Positions 36,465 to 39,998 of a stretch of DNA of 64,000 nucleotides are shown here, piece after piece. The notes beneath the pieces are model-generated. The model saw only the letters and a list, made by a program, of their open reading frames with translations, did no database searches and was not told where the DNA came from. Made by a program: the position numbers and the translations under genes. Each line of letters opens with the position of its first letter. The stretch's first letter is position 1. The stretch is taken from assembly GCF_014066305.1 (NCBI RefSeq), contig NW_023501045.1:307501-371500 (forward strand), read 5' to 3'. This stretch comes from Letharia columbiana (lineage: Eukaryota; Ascomycota; Lecanoromycetes; Lecanorales; Parmeliaceae).

Positions 36465-38160
36465 ATCACCCATCATCGACGGCATGAGCCGTAGCACACG
36501 TAGGTAGGGCAGCGTACAAATCTGTCAAACATGCTTCGTGCAGGATTCACACCGATCGAGATAAAACGCGCAGATGCAACCATGTTTAAGCATCCCCGTC
36601 TTCAACTCTCCTCGACAGTCTTCATTCTCATCTACCATCCACTCCATTCGACCAACTCTATCGACTAAAACCATGGCGATTCACTGACCAACCTAATCCA
36701 CCTCTACCCTCCCAGCAGAATGCTACAATACCCGCACCAAGTGAAACAAAACCACCATCCCCAGCATCCCCCTCATCTCCACCAAAGGAAAAAAGAACCC
36801 ATCCATCTCCACCCCACCCCACCCCCTCCCTCGCACAACTCGACTCAAGCCCCACCGCGACCAAAACACCTCACCGCCCGCCCCCTCAAAACTCTCAAAC
36901 CCCATCCTCACCCCCAACCCACCCACCGCGCCATCCCATCGACCCCGTCCTCAGCCGCACAAAGCTCGCACCTCCCACGCTGCTCTTCCTCGTTCAAAAT
37001 CGCCCGATCCGTGCGTCCTGGACGGATGGTCGGGTGGGAGCATTTGGAGTACTTCCGTCTGCGTCACGATGGCGGATTCGCGGCCGCTGGGGGGGTTTGC
37101 GACATCGCGTGGGGTGGATGGGGAGGGAAAGGTGTGAGCATGTATGGTGGGGGGGGAGCGAGTGAGTGGAGGAAATGGCCTGTTGGCTTAGCTCGCTGGG
37201 AAGGGTTTCAGAGTTGGACACGGGTCAAAGAAGAGGGGTTGGGAAGCTGAAGCTGAGCCCGAGTGTTATGGACCCCAACGCCTTTCGGAAAAAGGAACTG
37301 TCTGGTGGAAACGGTCCTTGAGGAGGGAAGGGAGCGCGAGAAGAGATGGGATAAGCGCCGTTTAGGACATTAAATTTTGCTGTGGTTGGGGGAAGGATGA
37401 TGCTTTTGAACCCGGGGGTGCTTCGTCACAGAGGTATGAGATCCGTCGAAAAGCTCGACCAAGCACTCGGAGCGCGCCGTCTCGACTGCGGTCACTGCAA
37501 ATCCTGACTTCTCTGGCTATCGCACCCGTGCTTCTTCTTCTTCCAACAGCACGGTCCGCGGTAGTTCTCGACCGGGCGCCGTGAAGGGACGGAGAGAGAT
37601 TGAGATGGATCAGAAGCCAAAGTTCGAGTGCGGAATCATCCTCGAATGCATAGCACGAAGAAGAAGGCCTCTGGACGGCTCTAGATCGCGAATGGTGTCT
37701 GGATACCGTCGCGACCGGCGACGTTTCCGTAAGGTAGATCGTTTCGGTATGGCGACGCTGGGGGGGTTGGGTTTCTCTATAATACACTCTGTGTCGGGCG
37801 ATTCGCCCGCTACAGACAGGCGTTCAACATATTTCGTGTTGGAATGTTGTGTACTCTTTCCCACGCAGATAATAGCGTAACCACCTTTTCTTCGGCGGGA
37901 GAGAGTTGGATCTTTAGATCGTCAATATCTGTCTAGATTTCTGCGCACGATGTGTAATCCTCCTCAGGTTCTTCCTTCTCTATCCGAGGTGTCACCAATA
38001 GGATTCATTCCTGTCGCTTTCCTTACGGGCTGGCTGTTCCAGATTTTTTTGCGATTCTCCTTGGTGGTAGTATTTGTTCCGTCGGTGCGGACTTTCTTGG
38101 TTCCGCCCGCAGTCGTGGAGTGCAAAGGAGCCAAGCGTTAGAAAAAGTCCGAAGAGTGTA
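36465..38160. other. Intergenic, 1.7 kb, low-complexity patches
   Basis: Contains a C-rich low-complexity stretch at about 36,715-36,950 and G-rich stretches around 37,130-37,170. Open frames in these patches owe their length to composition. No gene supported. Confidence 0.45.
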
Positions 38161-38166
38161 AAATTT

Positions 38167-38178
38167 ATTATATATTAC
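38167..38178 (+). promoter_or_regulatory. TATA-like element upstream of the split tRNA
   Basis: ATTATATATTAC lies about 40 bases before the first tRNA base, a position where a TATA element can assist TFIIIB in fungi. The region is AT-rich, so this is only suggestive. Confidence 0.4.
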
Positions 38179-38216
38179 ATTGGGCAGACAACTAATATCC
38201 ACAGCTGTCGTAGCTC

Positions 38217-38444
38217 AGCAACAGTCAGTGAAAACCTTTCAGAAATTCGTGACCGTAATCTAACTATTTATAGTGGCGCAGCGGAAGCGTATGTTACTCC
38301 GGACTATCAAATGTCTACAAAGCTAACTTCATTTCAGGCGCCGGGCTCATAACCCGGGTATGTTCGATCCCACAAAAATGTCTGTGACCGTTCAGATTTC
38401 TAACTTCCGTTCAGAGGACCCTGGATCGAAACCAGGTGTTGCTA
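38217..38444 (+). tRNA. Initiator tRNA-Met(CAT) interrupted by three spliceosomal-type introns
   Basis: Four exons (38217-38223, 38274-38288, 38338-38357, 38415-38444; 7+15+20+30 = 72 nt) form a complete cloverleaf. The acceptor AGCAACA pairs with TGTTGCT over all seven positions. The D stem is GCGC/GCGC, and the anticodon arm CCGGG-CTCATAA-CCCGG has CAT at 38348-38350. The variable loop is AGGAC, the T arm is CCTGG-ATCGAAA-CCAGG, and the discriminator is A. A1-U72, the GGG/CCC run in the anticodon stem and the ATCGAAA T loop mark an initiator. Introns: 38224-38273 (GTCAGT...CTAACTATTTATAG), 38289-38337 (GTATGT...CTAACTTCATTTCAG) and 38358-38414 (GTATGT...CTAACTTCCGTTCAG). They follow nucleotides 7, 22 and 42, not position 37. 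A box 38274-38284 and B box 38423-38433 are intact. Confidence 0.85.
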
Positions 38445-38451
38445 CATCTTA

Positions 38452-38463
38452 TTTTTTCTTTTT
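38452..38463 (+). terminator. RNA polymerase III-type T-run terminator
   Basis: Six T then, after one C, five more T, beginning 8 bases after the discriminator base of the split tRNA. This is a normal place and strength for a fungal Pol III terminator and supports Pol III transcription of the interrupted gene. Confidence 0.65.
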
Positions 38464-38763
38464 GTCCTTTCTTTTTAGACTCTGTGCTCCGTGAGATCCA
38501 TCGACCAATCTGTGACTCGATTGATGCTTTCAGCTCACATACATCTTTGCGTGTAGTCGGAACTTCAACGCGCATTCGAATTTGGGCTATATAATTTTCC
38601 GAGCATCAAAACTTCGAAACTTGTGACTTCACACTTCCCGACCTACTAATTACCTTCTGGTATGGAATCTGTAATGCCTAATTCTCTCTACAATTTTATT
38701 TGCAACGACTTTTGATTATCGTCAATAAATCACTATACTGTAACGAGAAACATGCTCTGATTA

Positions 38764-38851
38764 GCGGGTCATGAGCCCGGCCAGAAATTGGTTGTGCTCC
38801 CACTAACTAAACCTAAGCCCAGGACCCTGGAGTGAATACCAGATGTTGCTA
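38764..38851 (+). pseudogene. Degenerate partial copy of the split initiator tRNA
   Basis: The T arm and acceptor end (AGGACCCTGG ... ACCAGATGTTGCTA, 38821-38851) match exon 4 with a changed, 8-base T loop. Forty bases upstream GCGGGTCATGAGCCCGG resembles the anticodon arm with a damaged loop. The gap between them contains CACTAACTAAACC, a branch-site-like element, followed by AAGCCCAG. The intron 3 donor is lost, and the acceptor and D arms are not recognisable. It appears to be a dead duplicate that was already intron-containing. Confidence 0.6.
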
Positions 38852-39998
38852 CGTTCATGAGTGTTCTTATTTTCACAGAATATCAATCACTACTTTTAAA
38901 CGATTGTCAGGACTGGTCCATTCCAAGCCATTGTGCCTTTTTACGCAAAAGTCATCGGTATCGACGGACTGGACGCGGCGAAAACAAGACTGCCGATGCA
39001 ATAGTCAAAGAAATACCTAGTGAGAACATGTCCACGTCTGCTAACCCCTCAGTGTCCTAACCAACAACAACAGTGTTAAGATCGTACAAGGTAAGCATCG
39101 AATAACTCAGCCTAACCCACGCCCTTTTCAAGATCGAAAAGATGAGTATCCTACTCATGAAAATCAACCTAAGCCGACGTACGTATTTGCCCTGGCAATC
39201 CGCAACCAAACGTCCGACAAGCCCATAGCTAGCGTTCCCCCTAAATCTCCCAACACGATCCCCCATCCGAACGTCAACGACCGATACCCACTCCCTCCAG
39301 CGGACATCCTCCGACCCGCGAAACGAGCCCGGATCTCGACCCGACAAGACGTGGGGACCAAGACAAGAAAACGACACTAGGGCCGCAATCGGAGACTCTG
39401 TGCGCCAGACGGACCGGGGCATACGATGGGGCGATAGCGATAGCGACGAGCGGAAAGTCGTGCTCACGAGGCCGGCGGCTCTACGATCTTCCGACCGCGG
39501 CTTACAAGGGTACGCGAGAGGAGTCGAGCCAGTGGTATGGATGGATGGTATTGTGGATATTTTCATCCGATGGACAACCAGCCCCCGGCTACGATACGAA
39601 ACCCCTGCGCCGCCCCCAGAGGCAACCACGCCGTGCGTTATCTCAAAGGAGCGGCCCTGTGCGTTGCCATTCCGGGGCCTGGTTTCGATCGATCCTGTCC
39701 GGGTCGCTTTTGGGTGGTCGGAGGTGGGTCAGATGAGCACGGTTCGCCGACGATGGGGGCCCTGCCATCGACTGACAGGGCCGATCACAAACACACCGCT
39801 GCGAACTTTTTTTTGGGGGGGGGGCTCCGTGCCCTGTGAATTAAATCAATCGATCAATCAATCAATTGGGAAGCGGTGACTTGATTTTCATGTTACTATT
39901 TACATAACCAACCCCTTCATAGTCTCAGAATACCGTACACACTTCCGGCCCGGCCGACAAGAGCAAGGGTAGGGTCTTCTCCCCACCGTAGCATTGCC
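38852..39998. other. Intergenic with unusual composition
   Basis: GC-rich DNA with a T8-G10 run at 39,807-39,824 followed by AATCAATCGATCAATCAATC repeats. Long frames on both strands (such as 39,057-39,629 minus) reflect composition and show no family signal. Confidence 0.4.
39807..39824 (+). repeat. T8-G10 homopolymer junction
   Basis: Eight T followed by ten G, then a short ATCA-type repeat at about 39,845-39,868. Likely slippage-prone; length may be uncertain in the assembly. Confidence 0.8.

Follow-up and report, generated by a model that had tools for sequence, protein, structure and literature searches.

Can a nuclear tRNA gene be divided by introns of the kind found in protein genes and still supply the tRNA that starts translation? 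To our knowledge, tRNA introns are held to leave through the endonuclease-ligase pathway, or by self-splicing in organelles and bacteria. The question arises from a locus at positions 38217-38444 of the window, the whole 64-kb stretch of DNA analyzed here from Letharia columbiana, a lichen-forming ascomycete (a wolf lichen fungus), where an earlier note had proposed that cutting out three GT..CTAAC..AG segments leaves a 72-nt initiator tRNA-Met (iMet). Whether such a gene functions was left open there; the sequence evidence assembled below leans strongly toward yes.

An initiator tRNA gene in four pieces

The gene lies on the plus strand and consists of four exons (7, 15, 20 and 30 nt) and three spliceosomal-type introns (50, 49 and 57 nt). 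Exon 1 (38217..38223) provides tRNA nucleotides 1-7, the 5′ acceptor strand, all seven of which pair with the 3′ acceptor strand. It is followed by intron 1 (38224..38273, 50 nt), which begins with GTCAGT, carries CTAAC at 38260-38264 and ends in TAG. Exon 2 (38274..38288; nucleotides 8-22) holds a box A, TGGCGCAGCGG, recognized by eye at 38274-38284, and gives way to intron 2 (38289..38337, 49 nt), with a GTATGT start, CTAAC at 38323-38327 and a CAG end. Exon 3 (38338..38357; nucleotides 23-42), which was recovered as an exact 20-nt match in the genome search, forms the anticodon arm with CAT. Intron 3 (38358..38414, 57 nt) again runs from GTATGT through CTAAC (38400-38404) to CAG, and exon 4 (38415..38444; nucleotides 43-72) completes the T arm and the 3′ acceptor strand, with a box B, GGATCGAAACC, at 38423-38433, likewise read by eye. 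The gene is flanked by a TATATA element (38169..38174, plus strand), 48 nt ahead of the first tRNA nucleotide, and by a T6 run (38452..38457, plus strand), a terminator of the RNA polymerase III (Pol III) type, that starts 8 nt downstream.

Once joined, the 72 nt are named tRNA-Met(cat) by ARAGORN, which reports nothing in the same DNA unspliced, and the acceptor and T stems are fully paired (7/7 and 5/5). A1:U72 and a GGG/CCC anticodon stem are marks of eukaryotic initiator tRNA-Met. Both are found by eye in the joined sequence, so that a cloverleaf with CAT, as identified by ARAGORN, is combined with A1:U72, the GGG/CCC stem and A54 within the loop AUCGAAA. The last of these is described as an initiator tRNA feature in a section of PMC3978253. 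The picture drawn in the earlier note is therefore borne out in its particulars: the exon coordinates place introns of 50, 49 and 57 nt after nucleotides 7, 22 and 42, the 7-bp acceptor stem and the T arm are intact, CAT sits on its GGG/CCC stem, and the Pol III signals are kept, with box A whole in exon 2, box B in exon 4 and the T-run downstream.

Conventional annotation passes over this gene. In the raw window, ARAGORN finds no tRNA and Rfam none at gathering cut-offs; with a lax cut-off, RF00005 scores the iMet locus at 16.9 bits (cut-off 29). The window was therefore scanned on both strands by splicing out all combinations of up to three candidate introns, defined by a GTNNGN start, a branch-like motif, a YAG end and a length of 40-110 nt, and passing the joined DNA to ARAGORN. 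The 858 combinations produced five matches, with iMet the only locus, and a scan limited to 38101-38600 likewise gave five. Two of them have full acceptor and T stems, namely the iMet gene and a variant in which intron 3 starts 4 nt later. A chance origin of the spliced iMet is ruled out within the window: five dinucleotide shuffles and the reversed window, with 703-1128 combinations each, yielded no ARAGORN match.

Split tRNA and U6 genes across the genome

The pattern seen at iMet extends well beyond one gene: 14 other tRNA genes and U6 are built alike, which supports the spliceosomal interpretation advanced in the earlier note. The curated set comprises 22 spliceosomal-type introns in 15 tRNA genes, iMet included, plus two in U6; the 15 genes sit on 14 contigs, cover 10 amino-acid types and contain up to four such introns each. 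Six of the 15 were located by RF00005 alone, with no assumption about splicing. Thr-AGT, Ser-AGA and Arg-TCG score above its cut-off and Leu-TAA, Trp-CCA and Arg-TCT below it, and all six carry GT..AG inserts away from position 37/38. A fixed B-box pattern gave 79 genomic matches versus 36 for its reversed-pattern control, while an A-box pattern was barely enriched (14 versus 10, Tyr-GTA among the 14). Splicing was then applied around 75 of these positions, consisting of 65 of the 79 B-box matches (10 lie on contigs C94 and C110 and four were already known) and 10 of the 14 A-box matches. It uncovered Thr-CGT, Leu-AAG, Ala-TGC, Tyr-GTA, Arg-CCT, Lys-CTT and Gln-CTG, and Arg-TCT once more, versus no tRNA match around 75 reversed controls. 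The Lys-TTT gene was read by eye.

Several of these structures involve a choice. Arg-TCG, Lys-CTT, Gln-CTG and Lys-TTT were parsed wholly or partly by eye, and for several genes, Tyr-GTA and Leu-AAG for example, the scanner offered rival parses among which tRNA sense decided. By hand, Lys-CTT has four introns (the scanner's parses differed), and Gln-CTG has a GC-AG intron and an internal exon as short as 5 nt; an Arg-TCG intron ends, by eye, in AAG. Eight of the 15 genes carry a canonical anticodon-loop intron alongside, according to ARAGORN, which names Leu-AAG differently, and Arg-TCT probably has a short canonical intron as well. Three further candidates (L063, L066 and L115) were rejected as split genes, since their reading, done partly by eye, showed tRNAs whose sole intron is of the canonical kind. 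The pattern WGGTTCGANYCCW had 154 matches versus 48 for its reversed control and was swamped by a repeat among the matches listed. This repeat, AGGTTCGATTCCT, occurs for instance at C2:1048312/1048528, C3:384987/385198 and C25:728670/728894, in several places paired some 210-225 bp apart, and may be a small repetitive element that contains a word resembling a B box.

U6 is itself a Pol III gene, and spliceosomal introns are present in the U6 genes of other fungi. The U6 gene of this genome (L134, C17:919060-919420) has two spliceosomal-type introns, the first after ACGATACAG, within the ACAGAGA box (ACAG|AGA), and the second after GACACGCT, the second intron and the 3′ end having been read by eye. 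Rfam detects it as two U6 halves, scoring 41.2 and 23.3 bits where the cut-off is 44. The 5S rRNA has five full-length matches, all free of inserts.

Which polymerase transcribes the split genes

Splicing is as a rule coupled to RNA polymerase II (Pol II), and this lends some appeal to the proposal that the introns are indeed removed by the spliceosome while the genes are transcribed by Pol II as mRNA-like precursors. The T-runs after the genes argue against it. A run of five or more Ts occurs within 40 nt downstream of all 16 genes (15 tRNA plus U6), versus a window background of 0.027, and a TATA element in the interval -65..-10 in 13 of the 16, versus a background of 0.113. Such a T-run is found inside none of the 16 genes, which taken alone is not significant, since sets free of T-runs also turn up in 5% of trials with shuffled introns and in 13% of those with length-matched stretches of the window. 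Avoidance of T-runs was accordingly set aside as proof of Pol III, being weak on its own in view of these shuffles and of the 2 of 26 protein-type introns (described below) that contain one.

The internal promoters divide the evidence. In Lys-CTT and Gln-CTG, box A is split by introns and no box A-like string is left near the 5′ end, and in Leu-TAA and Arg-TCG an intron interrupts box B close to its 3′ end; these cases count for Pol II. A loose box A-like string is kept in the unspliced form of 12 of the 13 other tRNA genes; that of iMet is in exon 2, beyond the segment searched for such strings. Against Pol II, box B is uncut in most genes, a count biased by the seven that were found through an intact B box, and in iMet both boxes are uncut. 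U6, moreover, offers a precedent for a Pol III gene with spliceosomal introns. Transcription of the split genes by Pol III is thus likely, and the Pol II alternative, though it deserves to be kept in mind, is improbable.

Is there an intact initiator gene?

If the split genes were spare, unused copies into which introns or intron-like segments had been inserted, intact copies elsewhere would do the work. RF00005 returns 62 matches across the 52-Mb assembly. Contigs C94 and C110 account for 40 of them, and of the other 22 matches 19 score above the cut-off. C94 and C110 were taken as mitochondrial on their dense tRNA clusters, and their matches were counted as a group. Many tRNA matches on C94 are doubled some 90.5 kb apart, some recurring on C110, perhaps reflecting an overlapping circular mitochondrial assembly. 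The 22 remaining matches are few for a eukaryote. Three AT-rich tRNA-like matches lie within 1.2 kb (L042, C2:407100-408300), perhaps mutated copies of a repeat. The inventory is a lower bound, as RF00005 missed two genes that reading by eye brought out, Glu-TTC and Ala-AGC, each interrupted by a canonical intron, and it holds no gene, in any form, for Asn, Asp, Cys and Phe, among others.

The whole-genome search for uninterrupted initiator tRNA genes, suggested in the earlier note as a check, found none in the 52-Mb assembly, which may be incomplete. None of the 22 inspected matches outside C94 and C110 is an intact iMet, and the sole Met(cat) among them (L041) carries an ordinary anticodon-loop intron. 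Used as a genome query, the 72-nt mature iMet matches only two of its own exons; GGGCTCATAACCC has a single other exact occurrence, at C8:908129, which is not a tRNA. When all 15 joined tRNAs served as queries, the only other iMet-like match was a decayed copy in the window. Overall, 24 of the 28 matches of the joined tRNAs are their own exons, and the remaining four are two paralogous Leu matches from C4 (82-83%), the decayed copy of iMet and a Thr fragment on C50.

Some of these four speak for disuse. The stretch 38765..38850 (plus strand), 0.3 kb downstream of iMet, is a probable decayed tandem copy, with an anticodon-arm-like segment (38765-38780), a remnant with CTAAC and an exon-4-like segment (38821-38850). 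Its genome-search match is weak (39 nt at 38821-38859, 85%, E 0.093), and its local alignment score of 77.8 compares with a mean of 50.3 and a maximum of 75.5 in 200 shuffles. One Leu paralogue on C4, at C4:545024 and itself weak at 32.6 bits, reads AAG by eye, so that Leu-AAG may have a second copy that lacks the spliceosomal-type intron. Together with the degenerate AT-rich tRNA-like stretches on C2, these copies are what a pseudogene reading can draw upon. The split genes themselves do not look decayed, with 7/7 acceptor pairs in 14 of the 15 (6/7 in Ala-TGC) and 5/5 T-stem pairs in all 15, and nearly all their genomic matches are their own exons; that they are mere relics is quite unlikely.

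The Thr fragment may even preserve a product of splicing. C50:171900-171938 copies nucleotides 34-72 of tRNA-Thr at 95% identity, running across junction 42|43 without an intron. It is directly followed by CCA (L135, C50:171620-172000, 281-322), where the Thr gene itself has TGT. Since CCA is added to tRNAs post-transcriptionally, the fragment is best explained as a retrocopy of a spliced, mature tRNA, although in this one case CCA could also follow an old intronless fragment by chance.

Intron signals and the tRNA splicing endonuclease

The 24 introns (22 in tRNA genes, two in U6) span a narrow range of 49-58 nt, with a mean of 52.9. Twenty-three start with GT and one with GC (GCAAGT), GTATGT (4) and GTAAGA (3) being among the variants. 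All 24 end in AG (TAG in 14, CAG in 6, AAG in 4), a tally that is partly circular, in that such ends were used to find most genes, iMet and the six covariance-located genes excepted. A branch site is apparent in 18 of the 24 (CTAAC 11, CTAAT 4, CTGAC 3) and weaker in six, with its A 9-18 nt before the intron end and precisely 11 nt in 12 of them. The three iMet introns, all with CTAAC, carry U2-type spliceosomal signals. A set of 26 protein-type introns from the window and the other loci examined looks alike, with a median of 56.5 nt; not all of these are real, as the reversed control gave nine, and two of them are iMet introns. The earlier note had pointed out a match in length between the iMet introns and protein-gene introns of the window. 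At 49-58 nt, the introns are too short for group I or II self-splicing, which rules these out. A mobile family of introners was likewise rejected, as what the introns have in common amounts to no more than short words, the best of 15 nt and 11 nt (E 0.01 within the set). A scan of IMG/VR with part of exon 2 and the start of intron 2 returned no match.

A further reading to weigh against these signals is that the introns are ectopic tRNA introns like those of Cyanidioschyzon merolae and archaea, which the tRNA splicing endonuclease removes. Ectopic and multiple tRNA introns exist there, according to excerpts of PMC4090602 and PMC3978253, and in the latter many introns of the Guillardia nucleomorph are described as having no defined bulge-helix-bulge (BHB), a point in favor of the enzyme. 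In L. columbiana, the 4-bp central helix of a BHB can form at the boundaries of 0/24 introns. The test was a simple one with no canonical introns as positive control, and with 0.47 expected by chance it indicates lack, not depletion. None of the 22 tRNA introns lies at position 37/38; they are at many other positions. Both results agree with the earlier expectation that this endonuclease would not remove them. As GT or GC..AG ends throughout, branch-like motifs in three quarters of the introns, a narrow length range and signals shared with the protein-type introns of the same genome all speak against such a pathway, its involvement here is very unlikely. An assembly or contamination artefact is hardly credible: a window ORF is 95% identical over 97% to HO173_003557 [Letharia columbiana], and the same misjoin would have to recur in 15 genes on 14 contigs.

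How the initiator tRNA may be made, and what would follow

The spliceosomal reading is supported because the introns carry U2-type signals, BHB structures fail to appear, no intact iMet was found, and 14 other tRNA genes and U6 are alike. The locus is very probably a working iMet gene of L. columbiana with three U2-type introns, transcribed by Pol III, spliced by the spliceosome, and one of many such genes. Given the upstream TATA, boxes A and B and T6, Pol III most likely produces a precursor in which leader and trailer flank some 230 nt of pre-tRNA. The spliceosome, working by intron definition, would then take out the three introns, each some 50 nt long. The joined 72-nt RNA would fold, and RNase P, RNase Z and the addition of CCA would complete it as they do any tRNA. 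Introns of this type would have made their way into genes of the Pol III type, both tRNA and U6, genome-wide, beside the 37/38 introns that the tRNA endonuclease removes. That the spliceosome does the splicing, that Pol III transcribes the gene and that translation initiation needs it are what we infer from sequence.

By extension, the spliceosome is probably an obligatory tRNA-processing machine in this fungus, where a large share of the tRNAs, the only initiator among them, and also U6 would have no source other than spliced Pol III transcripts. If so, translation start, elongation and splicing itself would hang on one machine, conceivably a throttle on growth, for example on drying. Spliceosomal introns in nuclear tRNA genes would add a second tRNA-splicing route beside the endonuclease-ligase pathway, and would show the spliceosome at work on a wide range of transcripts of the Pol III type, in which internal exons can be as short as the 5 nt of Gln-CTG. 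Such genomes would provide an open test of intron spread into non-coding genes, and standard software would undercount their tRNAs.

Comparison with known systems

The earlier note knew of no established spliceosomal intron in a nuclear tRNA gene, and no report of one appears among the PMC papers listed in the searches, which covered those under CC0, CC BY and CC BY-SA licenses. Four systems come close. Ectopic tRNA introns of red algae, nucleomorphs and archaea, as portrayed in excerpts of PMC4090602 and PMC3978253, resemble those described here in their many positions, in their number per tRNA gene, and in that standard tools find too few tRNAs. They differ in being tied there to the tRNA endonuclease and the BHB, and the string "spliceosom" is absent from the main-text portion of PMC4090602; here, GT..AG ends and a branch site occur with no BHB. 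In lichen fungi, spliceosomal introns reside in rDNA (Bhattacharya et al. 2000, as cited in PMC6652019), and a passage of PMC6652019 offers the speculation that, by slowing the assembly of ribosomes, they protect against desiccation. The likeness lies in the same kind of fungi and a non-coding RNA gene as host. Unlike the rDNA, which is transcribed by Pol I and present in many copies, the hosts in L. columbiana are dispersed Pol III-type genes, and no intact iMet was found. The canonical 37/38 tRNA introns, with which the present ones coexist in the same genome and often in the same gene, differ from them in position, length and removal enzyme. Fungal U6 genes, too, are Pol III genes with U2-type introns removed by the spliceosome, and L. 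columbiana has such introns in its own U6. Yet U6 is a part of the spliceosome, whereas the introns here sit in tRNA genes for 10 amino-acid types, as many as four in one gene.
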